A stretch of 34,937 nt of DNA from a virus. Below are positions 6,691 to 34,874 of this stretch, piece after piece; position 1 is the first letter of the stretch, and each line of letters begins with the position of its first letter. The position numbers were made by a program, and so were the translations under genes. The DNA is taken from IMG/VR virus record IMGVR_UViG_3300025917_000042, positions 1 through 34,937 of that record, one strand, 5' to 3'. The notes under the pieces are model-generated. The model had not been told where the DNA came from. It did no database searches and saw nothing but the letters and a program-made list of their open reading frames with translations.

Positions 6691-6893
6691 AACTAGATAC
6701 TCCGGAAAAACAGTTTGTCTATGAAATGGGCGAGAAGTTTATCAAGGACAAGAAACTGGTGGAGAGTTATAAGAGTTTGGATGCTTATATCCTGCACGAA
6801 TTGGACGATATGATAGAACGGGGCAAGATGAGTGACAAACAAGGAAAGAAGATTTTTCTAGAGATGTTTGAAATGTATAAGGGTATATCATGA
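6687..6893 (+). CDS. small charged helical protein
   Basis: A 68-residue protein starting MKLDTPEKQFVYEMGEKFIK and continuing with KSLDAYILHELDDMIERGKM. It is almost entirely helical and rich in Lys, Glu and Asp. The start at 6687 makes an ATGA overlap with the previous stop; an in-frame ATG 33 bases earlier is less likely. The stop overlaps the glycosyltransferase start at 6890 in the same way. It may be an accessory or structural partner; no family recognised. Confidence 0.65.
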   Translation: MKLDTPEKQFVYEMGEKFIKDKKLVESYKSLDAYILHELDDMIERGKMSDKQGKKIFLEMFEMYKGIS

Positions 6894-8677
6894 CCCTCGG
6901 CCTGTCCCAAATCACCAACGACGCCGAAACCACGATTAAGTTTATTGAGAAGTACAGATTATATTTTGACAAATATTTTGTCACTGTTGCTGATAAGGAT
7001 AAGAAAGAATACAACAAACTTAAGACATACTTTGAAAATATAAATCACCCAGATGCTGACGGACTTGTTCTTACTTACTTCAAATGGAAGGACGACTTTG
7101 CTGCCGCGCGGAACTTCAACCTAAAATCTATAGACACCAAATTCTGGTTTTGGGCCGACAGCGATGACGAGATAATCAACCCTGAACGTATTGGTGAACT
7201 TGTTAAGTACTGTGTACAGAACAACGTGGATGTTGTCCAGCTGCGCTATGACTATGACCAGAACGAAGCCGGGGACGCCATCTCCGACCATTGGCGGGAA
7301 CGGCTCATCAGACGAAGCTACGAAGGTCATTGGGACGCCCCAGTACACGAGACCTTCCAAGGACCGCCCTGCGTGGCCGAACAGTCCGAATGGGTAACGG
7401 TCAAGCATCAGAAGGACAAAGTGGACGTCATAGCTAGTATGAAGCGTAACAAGAAGATTCTCCAGAAGCATTACGAGAAGACTAAAGACCCCCGTGACGC
7501 CCAGTACCTCGGCATGGCCGCCCTAGCCGAAGGCGATGACAAATTGGCTATCCAATACTTCCTCCAGCACATCAAGACCTCTGGCAGCGACCAAGACATG
7601 TACCGCAGCTGGTGTAGGATAGCCGAGGCCGAGTGGAAAGGCGGTAATTACGACCAAGCCCTCTACGCTACTGATGAGGCCATCAAACTGCGCCCGGACT
7701 TCCCCGACGCCTACCACATCAAGGTTATGATTTATACCACGATGGAGGAATATGAGAAAGGTATTGAGTGGCTGGAAGTGGCTGTCAACAAACCGATACC
7801 GAACACCCTGAACGTAATAGACCCGACGCTTTATAAGTACCGTGGCCTGGCCATGGGCGCCCAGTGCTTCCTGTTTAGTGGCCGGGTCAAGGAAGCCTAC
7901 AAGTTATACCAGGAAGTCCTGCGCCAAGCCCCCAACTTCTTCAAGGACATCGGCAAGATAGACGAGGTGGACTGGGACAGCGTCTTTGAGAACGCCTACT
8001 TTGACCAGAAAGCCCTAGACTACGCCAAGTGGCTACTGCATTACATCAAAGGCAACGGCGGCAAGCCCCAGAAGATATTTGAGTCCTTACCAGCCCGCAT
8101 ATTCTCGGACGTTCGCCTTAACGCTGAACGGGCGGAGTTCCTACCTAAAAAGAAGTGGCCTGAGAAAAGTATCGTCTTCTACTGTGGTCAAGGCACTGAG
8201 ACATGGGGGCCAGATACGTTGGATAAAGGCATGGGTGGTAGCGAAGAAGCCGTCGTCTACTTATCCAGAGAGTTAGCCAAACTTGGCTGGCAAGTGACGG
8301 TGTTTAATGAGCGTGAAGAAGAATATTGGGACGACCTTAAATATATTGTTGATAGCGATAAAGAAGCTGAAAAGATGTGGGAAACTGGGGAACTAGACGG
8401 TAAAGGAGTTCAGTATAAGCCTTGGACTTTATTTAACCCTTGGGATGAGTTTGATGTCTTTGTAGGTTGGCGGATGCCTGGCTTCACACGGGACATCAAG
8501 GCTCGGCTGAAAGTGCTGGACATGCACGACATGCCACAGGGCGCTGCCCAAATCACCAACTCCACGTTGGAGAATACCGACAAGATTATGTTTAAGAGTA
8601 AGTACCATGCCGCCCAAGCAAAAGTACCTAAAGACAAGGAAGTGATTATCGGTCATGGCATCAAAGACGAATACTAG
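6890..8677 (+). CDS. GT2-TPR glycosyltransferase fused to the first half of a GT4-like enzyme
   Basis: A 595-residue, three-part protein. Residues 1-180 are a family 2 glycosyltransferase with KWKDDFAAARN and the metal-binding WADSDDE (Asp90, Asp92, Asp93). Residues about 180-370 contain tetratricopeptide-like helices (AIQYFLQH, GNYDQALYATDEAIKLRPDF, AYKLYQEVLRQAPNFF). Residues about 424-595 are the N-terminal Rossmann domain of a GT-B enzyme: MGGSEEAVVYLSREL, DVFVGWRMPG and LDMHDMPQ. That domain breaks off at GHGIKDEY, just before its hinge, and the remaining half is encoded in the +1 frame from 8655. Either the two proteins assemble or a +1 frameshift joins them. Likely transfers two sugars in succession. 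Confidence 0.85.
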   Translation: MTLGLSQITNDAETTIKFIEKYRLYFDKYFVTVADKDKKEYNKLKTYFENINHPDADGLVLTYFKWKDDFAAARNFNLKSIDTKFWFWADSDDEIINPERIGELVKYCVQNNVDVVQLRYDYDQNEAGDAISDHWRERLIRRSYEGHWDAPVHETFQGPPCVAEQSEWVTVKHQKDKVDVIASMKRNKKILQKHYEKTKDPRDAQYLGMAALAEGDDKLAIQYFLQHIKTSGSDQDMYRSWCRIAEAEWKGGNYDQALYATDEAIKLRPDFPDAYHIKVMIYTTMEEYEKGIEWLEVAVNKPIPNTLNVIDPTLYKYRGLAMGAQCFLFSGRVKEAYKLYQEVLRQAPNFFKDIGKIDEVDWDSVFENAYFDQKALDYAKWLLHYIKGNGGKPQKIFESLPARIFSDVRLNAERAEFLPKKKWPEKSIVFYCGQGTETWGPDTLDKGMGGSEEAVVYLSRELAKLGWQVTVFNEREEEYWDDLKYIVDSDKEAEKMWETGELDGKGVQYKPWTLFNPWDEFDVFVGWRMPGFTRDIKARLKVLDMHDMPQGAAQITNSTLENTDKIMFKSKYHAAQAKVPKDKEVIIGHGIKDEY

Positions 8678-9245
8678 AGTTTACGATATAGGCTTTTTTT
8701 CAAGTGCTGATAGGGGTTTAGATGTATTGTTGGACATGATTCCAACTATTGAAGAAAAGCTGGGGCGCAAGGTCACTACAGTCTGGGCATACGGCTGGGA
8801 CATCTACGACCAGTTCCACGCCAAGAATCCCGAAAAGATGAAATGGAAGTGGAATGTTATCCGAAAGATGGCTGATGTTGGCATGGAGTCCAAAGGCCGT
8901 CTATCACACGAGGAACTGAACCAGCTTATGCAGGACACTGACGTCTGGGCTTATCCCACCAGTTTCACCGAGATATTCTGCATTACTGCCCTCAAAGCCC
9001 AGGCTGCTGGCTGCCGTGTCATTACCAGCGGTCTGGCTGCCTTACAGGAAACCGTCTTGATTGATGAGCCTGAAATTGTGGACATCCAGAACAACCCCAA
9101 AGAACTGGCCAAGTTTATAGACCGAGTTGTAGCCACGCTCAAGACCGAGCGTAACGAAGAAGACCTTAAACAGATAGCCGACCAAGTATTACAGGAGAAT
9201 AGTTGGCAGGCCACCGCTCTAGCGTGGGACAAGGTATTGAAATGA
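8655..9245 (+). CDS. C-terminal half of a GT4-like glycosyltransferase
   Basis: A 196-residue protein that is only the C-terminal domain of a GT-B fold: IGFFSSADRGLDVLLDMIPT is the nucleotide-sugar-binding start, followed by the loop SFTEIFCITALKAQAAGC that carries the first Glu of the EX7E motif (the second position is Lys). It lacks the acceptor domain, which lies in the C-terminus of the preceding protein. The two frames overlap by 23 bases and are shifted by +1. Reading through after the codons for KDEY into RVYDIGFF would restore one continuous GT-B enzyme. The intact GT4 at 12438-13322 shows the same GSSPDRGLD region in one frame. Confidence 0.8.
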   Translation: MASKTNTRVYDIGFFSSADRGLDVLLDMIPTIEEKLGRKVTTVWAYGWDIYDQFHAKNPEKMKWKWNVIRKMADVGMESKGRLSHEELNQLMQDTDVWAYPTSFTEIFCITALKAQAAGCRVITSGLAALQETVLIDEPEIVDIQNNPKELAKFIDRVVATLKTERNEEDLKQIADQVLQENSWQATALAWDKVLK

Positions 9246-9346
9246 GCGATGAACAGTGGAAAGTTATCATGCAGTTCCTCAATCTATTTGAGAACCATCT
9301 CCAAGCTATAGAAGACCACCTCAGAGCCTTACGAGGTAACTTATGA
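9242..9346 (+). CDS. 34-residue helical micro-protein
   Basis: MSDEQWKVIMQFLNLFENHL followed by QAIEDHLRALRGNL, a single amphipathic helix. Both its start and its stop overlap neighbours as ATGA (9242-9245 and 9343-9346), so removing it would break the coupling chain of the operon. It could be a small subunit or only a translation relay. It is below usual annotation length limits. Confidence 0.5.
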   Translation: MSDEQWKVIMQFLNLFENHLQAIEDHLRALRGNL

Positions 9347-10059
9347 GAGTAGCTTCGGTGGCCACCGTTTACAACGAGATTAGATTTTTAGAAAAACATC
9401 TTAACCATATGCCTGACTGGGTAGAGGAAAAGGTCGTGTTGCTATCTGCCAAGCCTTGGTATGGTGAGGAAGTTGAAGACGATGGTTCGGAAGCTGCTGC
9501 TAGGGAAGCTGGCGCTACTGTCATTAAATATGCTTGGCCAAATGAGACCGAGCAACGCAACGCCGGACAGGATTACCTGAGTGATTATGACTGGATACTT
9601 AACTTAGAGCCTGACGAGTTCTTAGATGATGAAAACTGGCAGCGACTCAAGGATTTCATAGACTCCGAACCAGCTCTCAATGCCTATACTTGTTTCCAGC
9701 AACAGATTTACTGGGGCAAGGGCTTTGCAGCCGACCCGCCAGAGGACTTCGTACCGATTATCCTGACCCGACCCAGCACCAGATTCGTAGACAAACGTGT
9801 TGTGGAATGCTGGTGGGATAGGATACCTGAACTAGTCCTGCACCATTTCGCTTGGGCTAGGACTGACGCTGAGATTTGGAAGAAAATCAGTCACTACTCT
9901 CACGCCGTAGATTTTGATATAGACAAATGGTACAAGGACGTTTGGCTTGCTCGCAAGACTGAGAACGTTCACCCAACCACGCCTAGTGCTATCCCTAAAC
10001 TGATTAAGGCCAAGTTGCCTCCAGAGATAGATAAACTAAAACTATGGCCAAAAAATTAA
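9343..10059 (+). CDS. family 2-like glycosyltransferase
   Basis: A 238-residue protein with the GT-A start VASVATVYNEIRFLEKHLNH, an acidic turn NLEPDEFLDD (Glu89-Asp91-Glu92) at the place of the DxD motif, and EQRNAGQDYL, the conserved helix of GT2-type enzymes. The C-terminal third (LVLHHFAWARTDAEIWKKIS) resembles the end of related phage glycosyltransferases. It probably transfers a sugar from a nucleotide donor to a glycan or virion protein. Position in the gapless operon supports a joint role with its neighbours. It overlaps the methyltransferase gene by 16 bases. Confidence 0.75.
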   Translation: MRVASVATVYNEIRFLEKHLNHMPDWVEEKVVLLSAKPWYGEEVEDDGSEAAAREAGATVIKYAWPNETEQRNAGQDYLSDYDWILNLEPDEFLDDENWQRLKDFIDSEPALNAYTCFQQQIYWGKGFAADPPEDFVPIILTRPSTRFVDKRVVECWWDRIPELVLHHFAWARTDAEIWKKISHYSHAVDFDIDKWYKDVWLARKTENVHPTTPSAIPKLIKAKLPPEIDKLKLWPKN

Positions 10060-10556
10060 ACCTTGGTAGCGGTGATTCTTCGTTCCCTGGTTTTATTAGT
10101 GTTGATTTATATGATGAGACCGCCGATGTAAGGGCGGATATCTGCGAATTGCCGTTTGACAGTAACTCAGTAGACGAAATCGTAGCTTACCAAGTCATTG
10201 AGCATGTGCCGTATCAGAAGTCTAAAGATATGTTTAGCGAGATGTACCGTGTCCTCAAGAAAGGCGGTACAGCCACCATAGAAACACCCGACATAGATGT
10301 TGTAGCAATGTCTATATTAGAGGATGGTTTGCAGGACAAGTGGATTTACTCCCTCGTGGGCGAGTATTACCGGCCTTGGGACAAGGAACGCTACCAAGAC
10401 TGGGAAAACGTGGCTGCTGCCATCCACCGCAACCCTTGGAATTACGAAAGACTAGAGTGGTTCTGTTTGTCTCTGGGGTTTGATATGGAACGCCAACCTT
10501 GGGAGGATAGCCAAATTAAAGTTCCAGAAAATATGAGGGTCAAATTAACCAAATGA
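10044..10556 (+). CDS. SAM-dependent methyltransferase
   Basis: A 170-residue class I methyltransferase. Motif I is LNLGSGDSSFPGFISVDLY (about residues 5-23). The post-I region includes VRADICELPFDSNSVDEI, and the motif IV-V region VIEHVPYQ...MYRVLKKGGTATIETP. These are typical of methyltransferases found in O-antigen-type glycan clusters. It likely methylates a sugar, possibly capping the chain; the acceptor cannot be read. It overlaps both neighbours. Confidence 0.85.
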   Translation: MAKKLNLGSGDSSFPGFISVDLYDETADVRADICELPFDSNSVDEIVAYQVIEHVPYQKSKDMFSEMYRVLKKGGTATIETPDIDVVAMSILEDGLQDKWIYSLVGEYYRPWDKERYQDWENVAAAIHRNPWNYERLEWFCLSLGFDMERQPWEDSQIKVPENMRVKLTK

Positions 10557-11365
10557 ACACGCTATGTATAGGAAGTTCGGGGTACATCGGCTCGGCTCTA
10601 AGGGACTACATTGATTTTGATGGTATAGACATTGAGCGTAAGAACAAGTGGGACATCAGGAACTACGATACTATCATCTTATTAGCTGGACATTCTTCTA
10701 TGCCGATGGGCAGGGACGACCCTGACGGAGCGTGGGTCAATAACGTGGTACGTTTTAAGAACCTGCTGGACAAACTGGACGATGACCAGCGGCTAATCTA
10801 TGCCTCCAGCGCCAGTGTCTACAACGGCATTAAAGGCAATGCTGATGAGGAGTGCATTGAGTTCAACCCCCTAAATATGTACGACCTATCTAAAGGTATC
10901 ATTGACCAGCTGGCGAGAATGGCGAACAAACACACTTACGGGTTACGGTTCTGCACAGTCAACGGCTACTCGCCTGTTTTACGCACTGACCTGATGCTCA
11001 ATAAGATGGTAGAGGATGCCAAGAACAAAGGCGTCGTGACGATTAAGAACGCCCACCTGACCAGACCGATACTGGGCATGGATGACCTGTGCCGTGCCGT
11101 CCAGACCATCGTGGAAAATGACGAGGATAAGCGGGGCATCTACAATCTCTGTTCAATTAACGGCAATACTGTCGCTGAGTTCGCTAAGGCTGTCACTGAT
11201 AAGTTCGGTGGCAAGGTGGAGGACTTAGGCAACGAACCGCACTACGTCTACGGTGCAGTCACCACCAAGTTTGAAAAAGCCTACGACTTCCAATTCAAGG
11301 AAACGCTGGAGTCTATCTTAAACAGCCTGGAACAAGAACCAGAAAGACGAGTAATCCGTGTCTAA
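10553..11365 (+). CDS. NAD-dependent sugar epimerase/dehydratase (extended SDR)
   Basis: A 270-residue short-chain dehydrogenase. The Rossmann glycine motif is GSSGYIG (residues 7-13), the active site has YASSASVY (about 83-90) and the Tyr110-x3-Lys114 pair in MYDLSKG, and the mid-C-terminal part contains HLTRPILGMDDLCRAV. It acts on nucleotide-activated sugars, as a 4-epimerase, dehydratase or 4-reductase (RmlD/GalE-like class); the exact reaction is not determined. With the RmlC-like gene downstream it suggests synthesis of a modified deoxyhexose from a host-supplied dTDP-4-keto sugar. Confidence 0.85.
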   Translation: MNTLCIGSSGYIGSALRDYIDFDGIDIERKNKWDIRNYDTIILLAGHSSMPMGRDDPDGAWVNNVVRFKNLLDKLDDDQRLIYASSASVYNGIKGNADEECIEFNPLNMYDLSKGIIDQLARMANKHTYGLRFCTVNGYSPVLRTDLMLNKMVEDAKNKGVVTIKNAHLTRPILGMDDLCRAVQTIVENDEDKRGIYNLCSINGNTVAEFAKAVTDKFGGKVEDLGNEPHYVYGAVTTKFEKAYDFQFKETLESILNSLEQEPERRVIRV

Positions 11366-11993
11366 GACTTCCCTGATTATCACCACCTACCACAAGGATA
11401 AGGCGATGATAGAACTGACCGAGACTTGTCTGGAAAGCCTGAAATACGGCCGACCAGATGAGGTTATCGTGGTAGATGACGGCTCACCGATAATCAAACG
11501 CTTCAGCGGTGTTAAGCAGATATTCCGGCAAGATAACGGTGGTTTCCCGAAATGTGCCAATACGGGCTGGAAAGCGGCCACAGGCGACATTTTAATCCTT
11601 TCTAATAATGATATTATCTACACGCCTGGCTGGTTGGAAGCTATTATCAAACCTTTAAATGAGGGGTACGATATAAGTAGTGTGGTGATGAGTGACCGTA
11701 CTTGGGAGACTAGGGATGAGATTACAGAGGGAGATTTCTTCGGTAGCTTGTGGGCGATGAAACGGGAGGTTTATGACAAGATTGGGGGATTTGACGAACG
11801 CTTTACCAAAGGTTGTTTTGAAGATAAAGATTATCACATAAGGGCAAGAAAAGCTGGGTTTAAGATAGGTAAGAATCACGCTGTCGTGGTGGAACATTAT
11901 GGACGAGCCACAATGAGAACAATTTACCCTAATGAGGAGGACTTTAATGAGAGCGCCAGAATATTTGAAGATAAATGGGGATTTCTAGTATGA
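11358..11993 (+). CDS. family 2 glycosyltransferase (rhamnosyltransferase-like)
   Basis: A 211-residue GT-A enzyme with GTG start. It has SLIITTYHKD at the N-terminus, VVDDGSP (DDG at 40-42), NGGFPKCANTGWKAATGD, LSNNDIIYTPGW (Asn83-Asn84-Asp85 in place of DxD) and the acceptor region GGFDERFTKGCFEDKDYHIRA cut here to its key residues Glu-Asp-Lys-Asp. This pattern is typical of rhamnosyl- and galactofuranosyl-transferases. The second half of the gene is visibly richer in A and T than its neighbours. It overlaps genes on both sides. Confidence 0.85.
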   Translation: MSKTSLIITTYHKDKAMIELTETCLESLKYGRPDEVIVVDDGSPIIKRFSGVKQIFRQDNGGFPKCANTGWKAATGDILILSNNDIIYTPGWLEAIIKPLNEGYDISSVVMSDRTWETRDEITEGDFFGSLWAMKREVYDKIGGFDERFTKGCFEDKDYHIRARKAGFKIGKNHAVVVEHYGRATMRTIYPNEEDFNESARIFEDKWGFLV

Positions 11994-12463
11994 GGATTGA
12001 ACGATTAGGCCAACCAGGAGTCCTGCTATTCACGCCAGATGTCTATAAAGACCATCGGGGCTATTTCACCGAGACCTATAACCAACACTATGGTTTTGAA
12101 GCCAAGCAAGGCAACCAGAGCTGGAGTAAGAAAGGCACGGTCAGAGGCTTGCATTACCAAGTGCCAGGCGTGACCAAATTAGTCTGGGTTTCCTCTGGCA
12201 AAATACTGGACGTAGCTTTCAACCTGACTACAGGCGAATACGTCACCGCCGAGTTAGATGATAAGCAGCACCAACGTCTGATAGTACCAGCTGGCTATGC
12301 GCACGGCTTCCAAGCCCTAGAGGACTCCACTGTCCACTACTTAATGGATGGCTTTTACGACCCCCAAGCTGACTACGGCATCAACCCTGATGCTGTAGCG
12401 TGGCCACTCAATCAATATTTATCAGATAAGGATAGAAATGCACCTCAATTTCTTGCTCAATGA
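11990..12463 (+). CDS. rmlC: dTDP-4-dehydrorhamnose 3,5-epimerase-like protein
   Basis: A 157-residue cupin. DHRGYFTETYN, KKGTVRGLHYQ with the expected catalytic His55, KLVWVSSGKILDVAFNL, and VPAGYAHGFQAL followed by a Tyr-containing strand match RmlC. That enzyme epimerises C3 and C5 of dTDP-4-keto-6-deoxyglucose. The start at 11990 is an ATGA overlap with the previous stop; an in-frame ATG five codons earlier is possible. No rmlA, rmlB or clear rmlD is present, so the substrate would come from the host or the enzyme serves a variant sugar (FdtA/QdtA-type 3,4-isomerases are the alternative). Confidence 0.88.
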   Translation: MRIERLGQPGVLLFTPDVYKDHRGYFTETYNQHYGFEAKQGNQSWSKKGTVRGLHYQVPGVTKLVWVSSGKILDVAFNLTTGEYVTAELDDKQHQRLIVPAGYAHGFQALEDSTVHYLMDGFYDPQADYGINPDAVAWPLNQYLSDKDRNAPQFLAQ

Positions 12464-13322
12464 GATAGCTGGTGGCTGGAAACCGACTGATACCCGTCTA
12501 GGCGGTACAGAAGAATCAGTTGTAGAATGGACTAAGGAACTGGAAAAGAGAGGACACAAGGTAACTATCTATGATAATGATAATCGTGCTGATTATAGCG
12601 GTGGTGGCGATGTTACAATCAATATCAAATCCTCGGAGATAGACCCCAAAGAGCCAACCCTGTATCTGACTAATGAGACTGACGCTGACCAGAAAGATTT
12701 AAGCAAGTATTTGGGTGTTATCTGGCCATCAAACTGGGCGAAAGATAATATACCGGTCAATAATATCCATAAGTATGTCCTCCCACATGGCTATGACCCG
12801 AAAAAGATATATCCAGGTAAGAAAATCCCGAAGCAATGCTTCTATGGGTCATCACCAGACCGAGGGCTTGATACTTTACTTGGGGCGTGGCCTCGCATCA
12901 TCAGGGAACACCCTGACGCCACGCTCCTAGTGACGTATGGAGGCCAAATAGACGAAAAAGGCGTTATAAATCTAGGTGAAGTGGACGCCGAAACTATGAA
13001 TGACGTCTACCGCACCTCCGATTACTGGGTTCACCCAGCTAATGGTGGCGAATTGTTCTGTATGACTGGCAAAAAAGCCCAGGTAGCTGGTTGTATACCA
13101 GTCATAATCCCTGTCATGGCCTTAAATGAGACTGTCAGGCGGGGTTTCAAAGCCGAAAACGAGAAAGACTACGCCCAAACCCTGATAGAAGCCCTCAGTC
13201 TCCCAGAAAAGGTCAAGAATATCGTTAGGCAGGACGTCATCAAACACGCCAACGCCACGACTTGGGAGGAATCAACCACCCAGCTCTTGCAAATAATTGA
13301 AACAGCGTTACAATCTAAGTAA
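12438..13322 (+). CDS. GT4-like glycosyltransferase (GT-B fold)
   Basis: A 294-residue enzyme. The N-terminal domain carries LGGTEESVVEWTKELEKRGH with the GGTE donor-loop glycines (22-25), the middle holds VIWPSNWAKDN and VLPHGYDPKKIYPG at the hinge, and the C-terminal domain holds FYGSSPDRGLDTLLGAW and GGELFCMTGKKAQVAGC. The second acid of the EX7E motif is a Lys, as in the split enzyme 8655-9245, so the two are probably related copies. It is the last gene of the glycan operon. Membrane or virion target cannot be distinguished. Confidence 0.85.
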   Translation: MHLNFLLNEIAGGWKPTDTRLGGTEESVVEWTKELEKRGHKVTIYDNDNRADYSGGGDVTINIKSSEIDPKEPTLYLTNETDADQKDLSKYLGVIWPSNWAKDNIPVNNIHKYVLPHGYDPKKIYPGKKIPKQCFYGSSPDRGLDTLLGAWPRIIREHPDATLLVTYGGQIDEKGVINLGEVDAETMNDVYRTSDYWVHPANGGELFCMTGKKAQVAGCIPVIIPVMALNETVRRGFKAENEKDYAQTLIEALSLPEKVKNIVRQDVIKHANATTWEESTTQLLQIIETALQSK

Positions 13323-28395: not shown

Positions 28396-31300
28396 ATGTC
28401 CCTTTTGGGCAGGGTTTTCGCTCAGATTAACCCGTTTGACCACGGGGCTACTTACTCACACCCAGCCCAGCCACAAGCCAAGCCCCAGCCTCGTGTCAAT
28501 GTCCAGCAGCTGACTAACGCCCTACAAGTCCACGCTGCCAATAATCCCGTCCTGCAAGCGCCTCACCCAATGCCTGCCCCACCACCCTTACCTGTCCATG
28601 TGGCTACCCCCCAAATCCTGCACATGGCCAACCAGACCTTCAACCAAAGCCCGACCGTCCGAACCCAAACCCCAGCCCGTAACGCTTTTTTAGAACAGCA
28701 ACAGCACCCTAGCGTAGTCCAGCAAGTACAACAAAAACTGGGACAGAAACTACAGCTACCTATAGAAACCGCCCAGATATTGAGACAGGAACTACTGCCG
28801 ACCCCCCATGAAATAGGCCAGACCTATCAAAGCTCCTTGCATGGTCAACATCCGGGACTAGCACCACTAGCAGCCGGTGTCCAAGCCTCAACCTACCTAC
28901 CCCTTGTTGGTAAGGTGGCTGAGGGTATTGGAACGGGTGTTAAAGCCGTTGGTAAAGAACTGCCTAGCGTGGCCAAAGCAGTACAAGGGCTGAAACCATT
29001 AGACCAAGCAGGAAAACTCCGACTACCATTCGGACCGAAACAAAATCTTCACTATTCATCTGGTAATGGTATCACCACAATCTCTGGTAAGGCAAATGCG
29101 GTACGAGCGCAGCTAAAACAATTAAATGAAGTGGGCGGCATAAATAATCAGCCTACCCATACAGTTTTCTACAATGGTAAAGCTGTAGATATGGGTTATG
29201 CTGGTACTCCGAAAGAACAGTTTAAGTTTGGCGCACAAAGAATTGCAGACAATTTAGGAACTGGTGGGCATACTTCAGATACAGGATATGTGAAAACACC
29301 CGATGGTAAATATTTTGAGGTAAGTAGGTCTAATAGTAGTGCTAAACCAGTAAGTGCCGATTTCGCCCAAGCCAAAATAGCAGAACAATCCAAACCTAGA
29401 ATAACCCCATTAAATGAAATAGGTGGTGTTGGTAGAGATGTAGAAGCCAACTCCCCTGCTGAGTATCCTAAAACCCCCCTAACACCTACGACATCTAAAA
29501 TAAATGGTGTCAAGGCGGGGCAGGGAAGTGGTCCCAACCTAAATAAAGGTGCTTTCAGTAAAGCTGACCAAGCCAAGATGACTAAGGAATTGGCGGCTCA
29601 ACCGACTCCAGCTAATGTCCAATCTGCCGACATTTTGAATACCACTCCTGGCCGAGTAGCCACTAACCTTAACAAAGGTCTTTCGCCAGAAGATAATGCT
29701 TTGGTTAATAAAGGGCTTATCCATTTACCTCCAACCACGCCGGACATTCCAAAACTTGCAGATTATCGTGAAGGCGGACTTTTACCTGTCAACCAACTTA
29801 ATGGTGCGGTCAAAGCACTCGGCTCTAAACTAACCGTACTTAGGAAAATCAACACGGCCAGCAGCCATGCTTTAGCCGACCAGATTGTTAAGACTGAGGG
29901 CGACAAACAAGCCTTGCGAGCTGGCTATATGTACCACATGCCTACAATTCAGAAGATGGGCAATAAAGACTTTCAGCAAGCTTGGGACATTCAGGAGGGC
30001 AAATTAAAACCGTCCGAGGCTTCACCAGTTGCCCGACAAGGTGCTAAAGAATTAAAGACTGTTATGAAGCAGGCAATCCAGCATGGTCAAGAACAAGCCC
30101 TACCAGTCGGAGAGCGCAGGAACTATATGCCTCATAACTACCCACAAAGCTTCTGGAAAGAAAAAGGCTCGCAGTATGATTCCGCAATCCAGCATTTGAT
30201 GAACACCAACCAACTCAATCATCAAGAAGCTATCCAGTTATTCCGTGATGAGGCCAAAGCTAATGCGAGGCGTCCTAACTGGTTTGGTAACTTTGAAAAT
30301 GCTCGCATGACTAACTTACCAGGTTATTCCAAAGACAAAGCTACCCTTTATAACTACCTAGATAATGTCTCTAAGCGTGTGGCTGAATCCAGACATTTCG
30401 GAATAGATAACGGGATTGCCAATCGTCTTCTGACCAATATTCGTTTAGAAGGAGGCGATGTACAAGCCGCCCAAAAAGCCGCTGGTAACTATCTGCATAA
30501 TGCTAAGTCTGACGGGACAGGGGCAAAAACTCTGGAAAAGGCTAGGGGAGTATTCGGATTCGCTAGACTGGGTAAGGCTTTCATTTCCCACGCCGGACAG
30601 ACCTCTAACACAGCCGTAGATACTGGTGTAGCCCGAACTCTGCATGGTTGGGGGCAATTCCTACGCCACAACCCCGACCACGCTGATTTCGTAGCCAAAA
30701 CTGGCGTTATCAATCCCCAAGAACTCCATGCCTATCAGAACCAATACACCTCTGTTAAGGGGTTGATGAGTAAAGGGACTGCACCATTACTGAACCAAGT
30801 TATGAAAGTCAATCGTTCAGTAACAGCCCTGACCTATCGTAATTATGCCCGTTTCTTAGCCAAGAAGGGCAATACTGCTGAACTACAGAAACTAGGTGTA
30901 ACTGGTGATATAGGCAAAACCTTGACTCCAGAGCAGGAAGTACAGGCTGCCAGAGGTGGTGTTACCCGTACCATGTTCGGGGCTTCAAGAGCCAAGACCC
31001 CTATATCTGCTGAGACCCCAATCGGTAAGACTATCGGTCAGTACCGCACAGCCTATGGCTATCGCCAAACAGGCTTTGTGTATGACCGAGTGCTGAAAGA
31101 GGCCGCTAAAGGCAATCTGATGCCTCTGACGAGGTTTCTGGCTGTTTCCGCACCTGTAGCTGGTGGCACAATCGCCATTAAAAACCAAATCTCCGGCAAT
31201 AAAGAGGGGATTGGCGGTATTGCTATGGACACAGCAGGGGCGTTAGGTGGGATACCAGGGGAAGTAGGCTTACAGTTAGCCAGATATGGTAAACGTGATT

Positions 31301-32115
31301 TGCCTAAAGCTCTAGCTGGTGTAGCAGCACCGATGGCTGGTGAAGCAGTTGATTTAGCCGAACGTACCCAGAAAGCTTTGAATGGTAAACCGCAGCAACT
31401 GGAGAAATATGGACTAGGGTTGGTACCATTTGCTGGAAGTAGGATTTCCAAAGCAGTATTTCCACCTAAGCAGACCAATGCTTCAAAGACTGCCCAAGCC
31501 AAGGCTACTGGGCAACTGCCTCCAGGCACTACACTGAGTGCTAAAGGTAATGTGTCTAAGATGACCCAACGTGAACTGAAAGCCACTAATCCAGATGAAT
31601 TAGCTAGATTCCAGGGAATGACAGCTAAGGCCAGAAAGAATGTCCAACTCAACAACCCAGATAAGTTCATCAAAGACCAAAACCTTAAAATCCAACAGGA
31701 GTTACAGCAGGGTAAGAAGGTGGATGCCTTCAAAGATGCTAAGGGCGTCGCCCAAGCCCAAATATATAAGAACTTTGATAAGAACACTATCCAAGCTTAT
31801 GGATTAAAAAGTACTGACTTCAAAGCTTACGTCAATCAAGCCTCCCCAGACGAAGTAAACCAATTAAGGGGTCTGGATAAGCAATTAGTGGATAAAGGGC
31901 TAGTCGCAAAATCTAAGTTCAAGGGAGGAGGAGGTGGTAGTAGCGGTGGCAGAACAGCTAAAGTAGCCAGCCTGAAGGTGAAGTTGCCGCCTAAACCTAA
32001 AGCCGTTAAAGCCGGTAAGATGCCTAAGGTCTCCCTCTCCACTAAAAAGGCCAAGTTCAAAGCACCGAAGTTAGGGGTTGCCAAAGGCCGTAGAATCAAG
32101 GTAAAGTATGGTTAA
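28396..32115 (+). CDS. large internal/polyvalent virion protein
   Basis: A 1239-residue protein, the largest in the window, with a good ribosome site AAGGAGCATAAACA before the ATG. Residues 1-110 are Pro/Gln-rich and flexible. Hydrophobic Gly/Val helices lie around 155-190. Residues about 215-350 form a more AT-rich, beta-containing insert (GKANAVRAQLKQLNEVGG, KYFEVSRSNSSAKP). Residues about 450-900 are long helices with GERRNYMPHNYPQSFW, a motif of polyvalent and ejected phage proteins. A hydrophobic segment (FLAVSAPVAGGTIAIKN) lies at about 915-935. The last 60 residues are very basic. It likely is packaged and ejected with the DNA, but no catalytic motif is seen. Confidence 0.75.
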   Translation: MSLLGRVFAQINPFDHGATYSHPAQPQAKPQPRVNVQQLTNALQVHAANNPVLQAPHPMPAPPPLPVHVATPQILHMANQTFNQSPTVRTQTPARNAFLEQQQHPSVVQQVQQKLGQKLQLPIETAQILRQELLPTPHEIGQTYQSSLHGQHPGLAPLAAGVQASTYLPLVGKVAEGIGTGVKAVGKELPSVAKAVQGLKPLDQAGKLRLPFGPKQNLHYSSGNGITTISGKANAVRAQLKQLNEVGGINNQPTHTVFYNGKAVDMGYAGTPKEQFKFGAQRIADNLGTGGHTSDTGYVKTPDGKYFEVSRSNSSAKPVSADFAQAKIAEQSKPRITPLNEIGGVGRDVEANSPAEYPKTPLTPTTSKINGVKAGQGSGPNLNKGAFSKADQAKMTKELAAQPTPANVQSADILNTTPGRVATNLNKGLSPEDNALVNKGLIHLPPTTPDIPKLADYREGGLLPVNQLNGAVKALGSKLTVLRKINTASSHALADQIVKTEGDKQALRAGYMYHMPTIQKMGNKDFQQAWDIQEGKLKPSEASPVARQGAKELKTVMKQAIQHGQEQALPVGERRNYMPHNYPQSFWKEKGSQYDSAIQHLMNTNQLNHQEAIQLFRDEAKANARRPNWFGNFENARMTNLPGYSKDKATLYNYLDNVSKRVAESRHFGIDNGIANRLLTNIRLEGGDVQAAQKAAGNYLHNAKSDGTGAKTLEKARGVFGFARLGKAFISHAGQTSNTAVDTGVARTLHGWGQFLRHNPDHADFVAKTGVINPQELHAYQNQYTSVKGLMSKGTAPLLNQVMKVNRSVTALTYRNYARFLAKKGNTAELQKLGVTGDIGKTLTPEQEVQAARGGVTRTMFGASRAKTPISAETPIGKTIGQYRTAYGYRQTGFVYDRVLKEAAKGNLMPLTRFLAVSAPVAGGTIAIKNQISGNKEGIGGIAMDTAGALGGIPGEVGLQLARYGKRDLPKALAGVAAPMAGEAVDLAERTQKALNGKPQQLEKYGLGLVPFAGSRISKAVFPPKQTNASKTAQAKATGQLPPGTTLSAKGNVSKMTQRELKATNPDELARFQGMTAKARKNVQLNNPDKFIKDQNLKIQQELQQGKKVDAFKDAKGVAQAQIYKNFDKNTIQAYGLKSTDFKAYVNQASPDEVNQLRGLDKQLVDKGLVAKSKFKGGGGGSSGGRTAKVASLKVKLPPKPKAVKAGKMPKVSLSTKKAKFKAPKLGVAKGRRIKVKYG

Positions 32116-32138: not shown

Positions 32139-32921
32139 ATGTCTAATCAAACCGCAACTTCTGCGCTCGGATGGCAAAATAAGTTCAGCACCACTCTATC
32201 CAGTAGTATCACATCTAGTGATACCACTATACCGCTAACTTCCGTACCTACCCCTAGTGAGGGCTTTCTAGTAATTGAGCCGGACAGTTCCACGGCCTGG
32301 GAGGTAATTTACTATACGAGTAAGACGGGTAGTGCAGTGGTCTGTACTTCAGCGTTAAACGGACGGGGTGTAGATGACAGTACCGCTCAATCCCACAGCT
32401 CTGGGGCGACAGTGCGAATGGACACCACGGCTGGTATGTTTGAGGTGTTACAGAATGGCACGGCTCTAGCGGCTGGGGCGGTCGGCACTCAGAACCTCTC
32501 CAACCCTTATAAGTTCAGTGTTTATAGAAATGCCGCAGCTAACTCTGGTAATGGGGCGTTCGCTCTAGTTACATTTGATACTAAAAACTTTGATACTGGG
32601 ACGAATTATTCAACTTCTACAGGCCAGTTCACCGCCCCGATTGCCGGTTTCTACCAATTTAGCTGGTATTTACAGACCAGCCAAGGAAGCGGTAGCCACA
32701 ACTGGCAAGCCAATTTGACTAAAAATGGTACGAGTACGACAGTGGCTTCGGGTAGTGCCGGTTGGTCGGCCAATGCAGGAAATATTACAGTAGGTTCAGC
32801 ACTTCTTCAACTTGCTAGTAGTGACACTATTCAAGTCATGCTATATGGGGATACAACTCTAGGGATTAACGTAACTTCAAGTACGGCTAACTTCCAAGGC
32901 TTCCTAGTATCGGCAACCTGA
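32139..32921 (+). CDS. tail fibre / receptor-binding protein with C1q-like tip
   Basis: A 260-residue protein. Residues about 15-95 hold the phage tail module TTIPLTSVPTPSEGFLVIEP, then CTSALNGRGVDDSTAQSHSS and GATVRM. Residues about 122-260 form a C1q/TNF-like jelly roll: YKFSVYRN, FDTGTNYSTSTGQFTAPIAG, FYQFSWYLQT, LTKNGT, LLQLASSDTIQVMLYG and NFQGFLVSAT. C1q-like tips on phage fibres are trimeric receptor-binding heads. It is well placed between the internal proteins and the lysis genes. Confidence 0.82.
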   Translation: MSNQTATSALGWQNKFSTTLSSSITSSDTTIPLTSVPTPSEGFLVIEPDSSTAWEVIYYTSKTGSAVVCTSALNGRGVDDSTAQSHSSGATVRMDTTAGMFEVLQNGTALAAGAVGTQNLSNPYKFSVYRNAAANSGNGAFALVTFDTKNFDTGTNYSTSTGQFTAPIAGFYQFSWYLQTSQGSGSHNWQANLTKNGTSTTVASGSAGWSANAGNITVGSALLQLASSDTIQVMLYGDTTLGINVTSSTANFQGFLVSAT

Positions 32922-32922
32922 T

Positions 32923-32976
32923 ATGTGGGAAGCTATCCAACACTTACAAGGCTTGATTGGGGCGAGGCGTGGCTAA
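32923..32976 (+). CDS. possible 17-residue relay peptide
   Basis: ATG at 32923 encodes MWEAIQHLQGLIGARRG and stops at 32976, overlapping the likely GTG start of the XhlA-like gene (32969). It begins one base after the fibre stop codon. It may be a translation relay or an earlier start relic; evidence is only position and overlap. Confidence 0.25.
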   Translation: MWEAIQHLQGLIGARRG

Positions 32977-33298
32977 CGGGAAACAAGTCACCAACAACGA
33001 CATCCTCAACCGTTTTGAGGCGGTGCGTTTGGAGGCCAAGCAGGACTTACAGATAGCGGTGGGGGGTTTCAACCAGAACCTCGGACGGCTGGAGAGCAAG
33101 TTTGATAACCTTGAGGCCGGACGGCTGACTAGACTTGAAGGCCGTTATAACGACCTCGCCCTGCAACTCCAGAAGGCGACAGATGACGGCAGTAAGGCTA
33201 CCAGCAATCTAAACGCTAAAGCCGTAGTGGTCGGACTTATCCTGACTGCCTTTCTTTACGGCATCGCCAATGCTATCGTGCTAAGGAGCATCAAATGA
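32957..33298 (+). CDS. XhlA-like lysis-associated membrane protein
   Basis: A 113-residue protein: an amphipathic coiled coil (VTNNDILNRFEAVRLEAKQD, NLGRLESKFDNLEAGRLTRL, GRYNDLALQLQK) followed by one transmembrane helix (AVVVGLILTAFLYGIANAIV) and a short basic tail. This is the layout of XhlA proteins, which work with holins at the membrane. Start is either TTG 32957 or, four codons later, GTG 32969 giving (M)ANGKQVTNNDIL. The stop overlaps the next start as ATGA. It opens the lysis cassette. Confidence 0.75.
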   Translation: MGRGVANGKQVTNNDILNRFEAVRLEAKQDLQIAVGGFNQNLGRLESKFDNLEAGRLTRLEGRYNDLALQLQKATDDGSKATSNLNAKAVVVGLILTAFLYGIANAIVLRSIK

Positions 33299-33594
33299 CA
33301 TTTTTCAGCAGAATATCGGTTAGGAGTTTTATCTTAGGGGCGCTCATCGCTACCGTCTTTGCCGCCGCTCTGATTGCTCTCCAAGCCTCCACCGCCAGCC
33401 ACCGCAACCATGAAGTCCTTATCCAGAACTGCCTAGTCGGCAATGACTTTAGGCGTAACGAACTGAAGCTGTGGAATCACATCTTAGGCATACCGCCCAA
33501 CCACCCCCTATCTGCCCAAGAGCAGAAACAAGTAAGCGACTTCAAGGTCTTCCTAGCCAGCACATTCAAACTAAGAGACTGTAGTAACATTTAA
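33295..33594 (+). CDS. single-TM lysis-region protein
   Basis: A 99-residue protein with an N-terminal membrane anchor (FILGALIATVFAAALIAL, about 12-30) and a soluble C-terminus with two cysteines (IQNCLVGNDFRRNELKLWNH; LRDCSNI). Proteins of this type, with CL..N..R..EL..LW and a final F..RxC, are found beside endolysins in actinobacterial phages; their role is unproven, with spanin-like or holin-modulating functions suggested. Coupled to the previous gene by ATGA. Confidence 0.65.
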   Translation: MTFFSRISVRSFILGALIATVFAAALIALQASTASHRNHEVLIQNCLVGNDFRRNELKLWNHILGIPPNHPLSAQEQKQVSDFKVFLASTFKLRDCSNI

Positions 33595-33603
33595 GGAGGA
33601 ATC

Positions 33604-34443
33604 ATGGCACACATTGAAGCTATAGACGTTAGCCAGTATCAAGGAAATATTAACTGGGCGGCTGTAGACCGCCCCATAGCGATTATTAAAATGTCCGGCG
33701 GTGATGCTGGGCTTTACACCGATAGCAAAGCCAACCAGAACTACTACGGAGCTAAGGCCGCAGGTAAGTTAGTCGGTGGTTACCACTTTGCCGGTGGGGG
33801 TAATCCCCAGAACGAGGCTGACTTCTTTGTAGCTGCCATGTCTCCATTAGAGGAGAACGATGTCCTTGCTCTAGACTGGGAGATTGAACACCCAGACCCA
33901 GTAGGCTGGTGCAATGCTTTCGTAGACCGGGTTCACGACAGGACTGGCGTATGGCCTCTGTTCTACACTAACGGTGCTAGGTTAAACGCCCATGACTTCA
34001 GTTCTGTAAGGGCTAAGTGCGGTACTTGGGTGGCTTGGTACGGCATGAATCCAGAGGGCAACCTGCCTGTATCTGGTAACTACGTTATGCACCAATACAG
34101 CTCTACAGGGGCTGTTCCTGGAATAGCTGGGAATGTAGACCACGATGCTTGGTTTTCTAGCTTAGATGTATTTAAGAAGTACGGCTACCACGCTCCAGCT
34201 ACGCCAGCGCCTCCTCCACCACCTCCAGCCCCAGTTCCACCACCCGAGCCTGTACCTGTGCCTCCTGCTCCAGACCCCAAACCACCAGTAGACCCAGACC
34301 CACCTCCAGCACCACCAGCCCCCACCCCTGAGCCGACCCCTATTCCACCTGTTCCGTCTAGTGACTGGAAGAAGATTGTTGGTGGTATAATAGCAGCTGT
34401 AGCAGCGGCCATCGCAGCAATAATAGCTTGGCTGCATAGCTAA
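33604..34443 (+). CDS. GH25 muramidase endolysin with Pro-rich stalk and C-terminal membrane anchor
   Basis: A 279-residue protein. Residues 4-195 are a GH25 (Chalaropsis-type) lysozyme: IDVSQYQGNINW (Asp8), ALDWEIEH (Asp91, Glu93) and NVDHDAW (Asp179, Asp181) supply the expected acidic residues. It cleaves between N-acetylmuramic acid and N-acetylglucosamine. Residues about 197-251 are almost all Pro, Ala, Val, Glu and Asp (a rigid stalk). Residues 258-276 are a transmembrane helix (IVGGIIAAVAAAIAAIIAWL) with a three-residue tail. Wall-binding repeats are absent. The strong AAGGAGGA site gives high translation. A tail-anchored endolysin is unusual; it may be tethered and activated by membrane depolarisation or after holin action. 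Confidence 0.9.
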   Translation: MAHIEAIDVSQYQGNINWAAVDRPIAIIKMSGGDAGLYTDSKANQNYYGAKAAGKLVGGYHFAGGGNPQNEADFFVAAMSPLEENDVLALDWEIEHPDPVGWCNAFVDRVHDRTGVWPLFYTNGARLNAHDFSSVRAKCGTWVAWYGMNPEGNLPVSGNYVMHQYSSTGAVPGIAGNVDHDAWFSSLDVFKKYGYHAPATPAPPPPPPAPVPPPEPVPVPPAPDPKPPVDPDPPPAPPAPTPEPTPIPPVPSSDWKKIVGGIIAAVAAAIAAIIAWLHS

Positions 34444-34459
34444 ATAAAAGGAGAAACAA

Positions 34460-34660
34460 ATGATAAGAAAACTAATATTAGCAGTCGTAGTGGCTGTCGT
34501 GGTGACGCTAGGCTGTATTCTTTTAGGTGGTATCTTAGATAGCCTAAAGGTACAGATAGCAATAACAATCGGTGACTTTCTAAAGAACTACGGTGCGGTA
34601 ATCGGTGTCCTAGCTGGACTCTGGTACTACTTCGCTGGTGGCTTTAATACAGGAGCATAA
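34460..34660 (+). CDS. holin-like two-TM protein
   Basis: A 66-residue protein with two hydrophobic helices: LILAVVVAVVVTLGCILLGG (3-25) and AVIGVLAGLWYYFAGG (46-62), separated by a short polar loop. AAAAGGAG precedes the ATG at good spacing. Size, topology and position just after the endolysin support a holin; no family name is assigned. Confidence 0.65.
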   Translation: MIRKLILAVVVAVVVTLGCILLGGILDSLKVQIAITIGDFLKNYGAVIGVLAGLWYYFAGGFNTGA

Positions 34661-34661
34661 G

Positions 34662-34874
34662 ATGAACGACACTACGAAACGAGCCTTACACACCTTCTAT
34701 CAGGCAGCTATTCCAGTCTTTCTGGCTGGAGTTAGCAATGTTCTAAACGCTTTTCAACATGGCGGTCTGAGTGCTGGCAAGGCAGCCCTGTTAGCTCTAG
34801 CTACCGGTGCGGTTGCCGCTGGCATCTCAGCCCTTAAAAGCCTGATTGTCAGTAAGCCCACTTACCAAGTCTAG
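34662..34874 (+). CDS. holin-like small membrane protein
   Basis: A 70-residue protein with a helix TFYQAAIPVFLAGVSNVLNA and a second small-residue-rich helix GKAALLALATGAVAAGISAL, ending in KSLIVSKPTYQV. Similar phage proteins (RALHTFxQAxIPxFL...) are often annotated as holins. The start at 34662 has AGGAG seven bases upstream; the GTG 24 bases earlier overlaps the previous gene and is less likely. This is the last gene of the window. Confidence 0.7.
   Translation: MNDTTKRALHTFYQAAIPVFLAGVSNVLNAFQHGGLSAGKAALLALATGAVAAGISALKSLIVSKPTYQV

Follow-up and report, generated by a model that had tools for sequence, protein, structure and literature searches.

A phage GH25 endolysin ending in a proline-rich stalk and a predicted membrane helix

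Background

Endolysins with catalytic domains of the Gram-positive type are usually viewed as soluble enzymes, which grip the wall by means of wall-binding domains and leave the cell through holes made by holins. How, then, would lysis proceed if the wall-gripping part of such an enzyme were replaced by a membrane helix at the end of the chain? The question is raised by a 34,937-base virus contig of a soil phage (IMG/VR record IMGVR_UViG_3300025917_000042), referred to here in its whole length as the window. The phage is podovirus-like, with terminase (PHROG 2), portal (PHROG 1216), major head protein (PHROG 1328) and internal virion protein (PHROG 511), and five tightly spaced plus-strand genes at the right end of the window make up its lysis operon (Table 1). 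A first-pass annotation had described the product of the third of these as a tail-anchored GH25 endolysin on a proline-rich stalk.

Results and discussion

A GH25 muramidase in a lysis operon

The endolysin ORF begins with ATG and is open under the standard code to 34443, as the claim of translation through the helix demands. Its product matches the Glyco_hydro_25 model in full (positions 1-180 of 180; E = 7.7e-32; score 111.5 bits, cut-off 27), and D8, D91, E93 and D179 are invariant in an alignment of ten viral GH25s. At the level of sequence these results confirm the earlier description of the ORF as encoding a complete GH25 muramidase with its catalytic residues present. Relatives of the domain in the PDB include the lysozyme structures 4kru, 4krt, 4jz5 and 5a6s. 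A second, separately assembled contig is identical to the window over 6069 bp, endolysin ORF included, which shows the ORF to be no artefact of assembly; as the only close copy of the tail is identical, it is too close to show selection on stalk or helix.

Profile searches found no wall-binding domain in the protein, and no holin was matched in Pfam or PHROG, so that with its one helix it does not qualify as a whole-holin fusion. The N-terminus (MAHIEAIDVSQYQ) carries no signal peptide. As the first-pass annotation had held, the protein differs from N-terminal signal-anchor-release (SAR) endolysins: the hydrophobic maximum lies at residue 258, and the N-terminus belongs to the GH25 fold. The sequence has the order typical of C-terminal membrane endolysins, that is, a catalytic domain followed by a C-terminal membrane helix, with no N-terminal signal.

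Table 1. Positions of the features discussed, in the window unless a locus is named
Feature	Position	Strand	Remarks
Region between terminase and structural genes	6890-13322
1239-aa protein	28396-32115
Tail protein and counterparts	32139-32921; L021:213-1988; L159:985-2676; L222:5980-7695
XhlA-like lysis-associated protein	32957-33298	+	113 aa; C-terminal membrane helix, residues 90-108, KD19 2.29; start codon uncertain
99-aa protein	33295-33594	+	single N-terminal membrane helix; ATG overlaps stop of XhlA-like gene (ATGA)
Ribosome-binding site of endolysin	33593-33599	+	AAGGAGG, read from sequence, directly 5' of ATG
GH25 endolysin, predicted C-terminal membrane anchor	33604-34443	+	279 aa
GH25 catalytic domain	33622-34125	+	residues 7-174; PF01183
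Catalytic motif D91-W92-E93	33874-33882	+	D and E invariant in ten-sequence alignment
Pro-rich stalk	34192-34365	+	residues 197-254; 33 Pro of 58
Predicted C-terminal membrane helix	34375-34434	+	residues 258-277 (20 residues); WKK before
66-aa holin-like protein	34460-34660	+	two hydrophobic helices; KD19 3.04
r1t-like holin	34662-34874	+	70 aa from ATG 34662; ORF listed from GTG at 34638
GH25, Pro-rich linker, whole C-terminal Phage_holin_Dp1	L189:3459-4541; L191:1013-2113; L194:751-1809; L195:3501-4547; L196		single frame
GH25, Thr/Pro-rich linker, r1t-like two-helix domain	L170:5001-6170		one frame

The two holin-like proteins and the XhlA-like protein said to surround the enzyme are indeed there as a cassette, but two of the family calls fall under their cut-offs and one protein matched no family. 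The match to Pfam XhlA (E = 0.0014) reaches 19.2 bits against a curated cut-off of 34.7, a weak call that permits no more than the name XhlA-like. Likewise only holin-like is the last gene of the operon, which matches PHROG 443 (holin) at 2e-4 and, weakly, Pfam r1t holin at 0.0024 (18.3 bits, cut-off 26.9). The 66-aa protein, without a family match in Pfam and PHROG searches, is holin-like by position and shape, and the 99-aa protein matched no family in the Pfam profile search. Clear ribosome-binding sites precede the endolysin gene, the 66-aa gene (AAGGAG at 34448) and the r1t-like gene (AGGAG at 34651).

The stalk and the C-terminal helix

The stalk is slightly longer than the 55 residues first reported for it, at 58, and none of 200,000 random 60-mers with the phage's protein composition contained 33 prolines. 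Computed at 0.31 nm per residue, it would measure about 18 nm if it were polyproline II; in Gram-positive cells membrane and wall lie apart by a distance of similar order, a resemblance that we do not count as evidence. Codon choice in stalk and helix broadly resembles that in the remainder of the phage.

The protein ends in WKK-IVGGIIAAVAAAIAAIIAWL-HS. On simple, scripted hydrophobicity and insertion scales, used here throughout in place of trained predictors, the segment between the flanking residues reaches a Kyte-Doolittle value of 2.5 (19 residues), its summed insertion energy is favourable at -2.1 (core scale) and its amphipathicity is low (muH 0.20). Because of these three properties it looks like a membrane-spanning helix rather than a surface helix; the low muH also rules out an amphipathic, membrane-disrupting helix for this tail. 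Its hydrophobicity was matched by 7 of 200,000 random 25-mers with the protein composition of the phage, and a similar C-terminal helix occurs in none of the 24 other window ORFs checked. The observation of the first-pass annotation thus holds as to layout: a GH25 domain is followed by a stalk and then by a predicted C-terminal membrane helix, which replaces the part that would grip the wall.

The positively charged side of a membrane helix is, by the positive-inside rule, the cytoplasmic one. Beside the window helix the charges lie on the stalk side only (KK), and K and R are absent after it. Since there is also no signal peptide, enzyme and stalk are predicted to be cytoplasmic, which does not fit a muramidase that is kept outside on its stalk from the start. 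Nothing points to the unusual envelope that had been suggested along with it.

Comparison with known lytic enzymes

Classical GH25 endolysins (Phives, Penoan, SpecialK and the locus L171) share the catalytic family of the window enzyme but end in LysM, CW_7, peptidoglycan-binding repeats or other soluble domains, and never, among those examined, in a membrane helix. SAR endolysins have an Ala/Gly-rich membrane helix, as the window enzyme does; theirs is N-terminal and doubles as an export signal, whereas that of the window is C-terminal.

As a class, C-terminal membrane endolysins are not new, contrary to the first reading of this gene: Siskin (PMC6498227), M4Lys (PMC7143992), Enc34 (PMC8943055) and LysAP (PMC8879335) have been published, all from phages of Gram-negative hosts. 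What the window appears to add to them is a GH25 enzyme with a stalk and a C-terminal helix. The enzymes of the chi-like phages (Siskin, M4Lys of BSPM4 and Enc34 ORF39) agree with that of the window in placing the catalytic domain first and one or more membrane helices last, with no N-terminal signal. They differ in their catalytic domain, which is PHA02564 (the Enc34 kind) rather than the GH25 of the window; Enc34 and Siskin have two predicted helices instead of one, Siskin being predicted as N-in, C-in (PMC6498227), and the accessible parts of these reports describe no long Pro-rich stalk comparable to the 58 residues seen here. LysAP of Acidovorax phage AP1 shares the single C-terminal helix, which is required for localisation and lysis and for which use of the Sec pathway is reported (PMC8879335), but in this phage of a Gram-negative host four basic residues follow the helix, whereas none do in the window.

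A natural holin-endolysin fusion is known from Clostridium sporogenes (TpeE family), its holin part being proposed as a possible membrane anchor (PMC9527704). In the open-access literature, to which our search was confined, we found no account of a GH25 endolysin that carries a Pro-rich stalk followed by a C-terminal helix, and none of a GH25-holin fusion in which the holin comes last.

Membrane tails in other viral GH25 enzymes

A first hydrophobicity survey, of 80 viral GH25 loci, yielded one such tail apart from that of the window. This second case, L159, is a 42,969-base contig whose endolysin likewise consists of GH25, a Pro-rich stalk and a C-terminal hydrophobic helix; the domain order sought in other phages was therefore found. 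The L159 helix has its positive charges after it (ELKK), and its insertion is only borderline.

A second survey was seeded with L159 and two relatives. In five loci (L189, L191, L194, L195 and L196) Pfam Phage_holin_Dp1 was matched above its cut-off (E = 5e-13 to 6e-11) at the C-terminus, in the same open frame as GH25 and a linker, and these proteins are, as predicted from their domains, natural endolysin-holin fusions with the holin last. Endolysin and holin are thus joined in a single chain, as in the TpeE family, but there the holin is N-terminal, whereas in L189, L191, L194 and L195 it follows a Pro-rich stalk; the window has one helix only. Flanking charges in the fused-holin types likewise favour an enzyme on the cytoplasmic side. 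The two-helix end of L170 shows weak similarity to r1t holins as well as to the window's own r1t-like holin, and in the catalytic domain L170 and L159 share 75% identity. C-terminal amphipathic helices end the endolysins of L188 and L192, where a membrane-disrupting helix is plausible. L192 also encodes a separate Dp1 holin, whose start lies four bases before the end of the endolysin gene, an overlapping arrangement that could give rise to a fusion. The terminase frame in the L195 record (G416:C1:11559-12848) contains one in-frame TAG, which may reflect stop-codon reassignment, an intron or an error.

Some form of membrane tail is attached to nine of 113 distinct viral GH25 domains, a fraction that stems from seeded surveys and is not a frequency. 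L177 exceeded the hydrophobicity cut and was excluded from this count, as the hydrophobic maximum falls far from the end of the protein, within a long soluble tail that closes with repeats. On a tree of the 113 domains the membrane tails need four changes, and the window branch is long; the AU test did not reject a single clade of all membrane tails (p = 0.096), and it likewise did not reject one that unites the window with L159 and L170 (p = 0.57). Judged from sequence, what recurs across these tails is membrane association and not one particular sequence.

Such a membrane tail is absent from all 56 GH25 proteins of bacterial genomes and from the seven cultured actinobacterial phage endolysins examined. 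The 56 bacterial loci come mainly from lactobacilli, mostly have an N-terminal hydrophobic segment and all have soluble tails; they are uninformative on the host. A GH25-holin fusion used as query found no full-length match in 398 genomes (phylum of a Lactobacillus), and among annotated phages the matches were to the catalytic domain alone, 80% coverage being reached in no record.

Exchange of lysis enzymes among relatives of the window phage

The capsid protein of L159 matches the profile of the window group (E = 2.6e-51), and the gene two places 5' of its endolysin shares a domain with the window tail protein at 49% identity; by these matches L159 is a distant relative of the window phage. 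Two further members of the group have other endolysins, in each case without a membrane tail: L014/L021 (capsid about 80% identical) encodes a CHAP enzyme and L222 (capsid E = 4.9e-54) an M23 enzyme. Because CHAP, M23 and GH25 (window and L159) enzymes thus alternate, the lysis enzyme is, on this comparison, exchanged within the group, and in the cases seen the membrane tail accompanies the GH25 version. The endolysin types suggest a host with a Gram-positive-type wall, without proving it; aligned against bacterial genomes, the window capsid found no relatives.

How the enzyme might act

The reading that we favour, and to which we give an even chance, is that the window endolysin is a holin-dependent GH25 muramidase, which its C-terminal helix anchors on the cytoplasmic side of the membrane, with the stalk as a tether. 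The muramidase would be synthesised in the cytoplasm and attached to the membrane with its N-terminus in and its C-terminus out, the stiff Pro-rich stalk presumably standing between enzyme and membrane. The wall would be out of reach until holins of the same operon opened the membrane; the enzyme could then swing or diffuse through the lesion while still tethered, and the extended stalk would let it reach peptidoglycan beside the hole. The tether would so take over from wall-binding domains the task of keeping the enzyme local. The complete GH25 domain, the spanning type of helix, the lack of a signal, the KK on the stalk side, the holin-bearing operon, the layout of L159, the membrane-associated ends of other phage GH25 enzymes and the charges of the fused-holin types all accord with this reading. 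Two points go against it: the charges after the L159 helix favour the opposite topology, and overproduced LysAP and M4Lys lyse E. coli without a holin, their C-terminal helix being required (PMC8879335, PMC7143992).

Both points suit instead an enzyme that exports itself, its helix inserting N-out, C-in so that the muramidase lies outside the membrane and lyses as LysAP and M4Lys do. We regard this as unlikely for the window, where the positive charges lie on the stalk side with no K or R after the helix, where the operon contains holin candidates, and where a C-terminal signal would have to move a folded 190-aa domain and a 58-aa Pro-rich stalk across the membrane.

A derivation of the helix from a holin, or a partnership with one, is in our judgement improbable too; the helix would join holin rafts and couple enzyme and hole, a single helix being a reduced endolysin-holin fusion. 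The whole Dp1 holins fused to GH25-stalk proteins, the fusion in L170 on a catalytic domain so close to that of one-helix L159, and the overlapping holin gene of L192 argue for it, as does the share of Ala, Gly and Ser in the window helix (56%), which resembles that in the second helix of the phage's own r1t-like holin (61%). Composition alone is weak evidence, though; homology of the window helix to any holin is not detectable, and in the fused-holin contigs nothing matched the capsid of the window group.

An ordinary soluble, holin-dependent endolysin with a dispensable tail would fit the relatives that manage with untailed CHAP or M23 enzymes, but we consider it very unlikely given a helix hydrophobicity far above chance and the membrane tails of other viral GH25 enzymes. 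Barely credible is a sortase-type surface protein or virion-associated lysin, for although stalk and C-terminal hydrophobic segment outline a sorting signal, the gene stands among lysis genes and not tail genes, and the signal was rejected, with LPXTG-like motif, signal peptide and basic tail after the helix all absent.

Beyond the window, the plan of GH25, stalk and helix seems to be a form of phage lysis that has gone unnoticed, and no isolated case, because related uncultured phages repeat it, some with a whole fused holin. Until now C-terminal membrane endolysins were reported from a few Gram-negative phages, a range that the window enzyme would extend. More tentatively, and with clear doubt, we propose a recurring, undescribed strategy in which GH25 is coupled to the lesion through a Pro-rich stalk and a C-terminal membrane module; this module would range from a single helix, as in the window, to a complete fused holin, with amphipathic helices in between, and the enzyme would cut only at the hole and need no wall-binding domain. 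If this is true, tail-tethered GH25 enzymes and whole-holin fusions show that hole and enzyme form one complex in some phages, and experiments can address directly whether an endolysin has to leave the membrane at all, what reach it requires and whether holin triggering alone times lysis.

Other genes of the phage group

The tail protein encoded upstream of the lysis operon and its counterparts in L021, L159 and L222 share an N-terminal domain that is strongly conserved, and their C-terminal parts are exchangeable: the window has C1q there, the other three Laminin_G_3; it looks like a receptor-binding protein with swapped tips. The 1239-aa protein encoded before it, whose sequence is rich in proline near the N-terminus and basic at the other end, has counterparts at the same place in relatives and no confident family match, and is possibly an injected virion protein. 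Between terminase and structural genes, the window carries a cluster of genes for glycosyltransferases, a methyltransferase, a nucleotide-sugar epimerase and a dTDP-4-dehydrorhamnose 3,5-epimerase.
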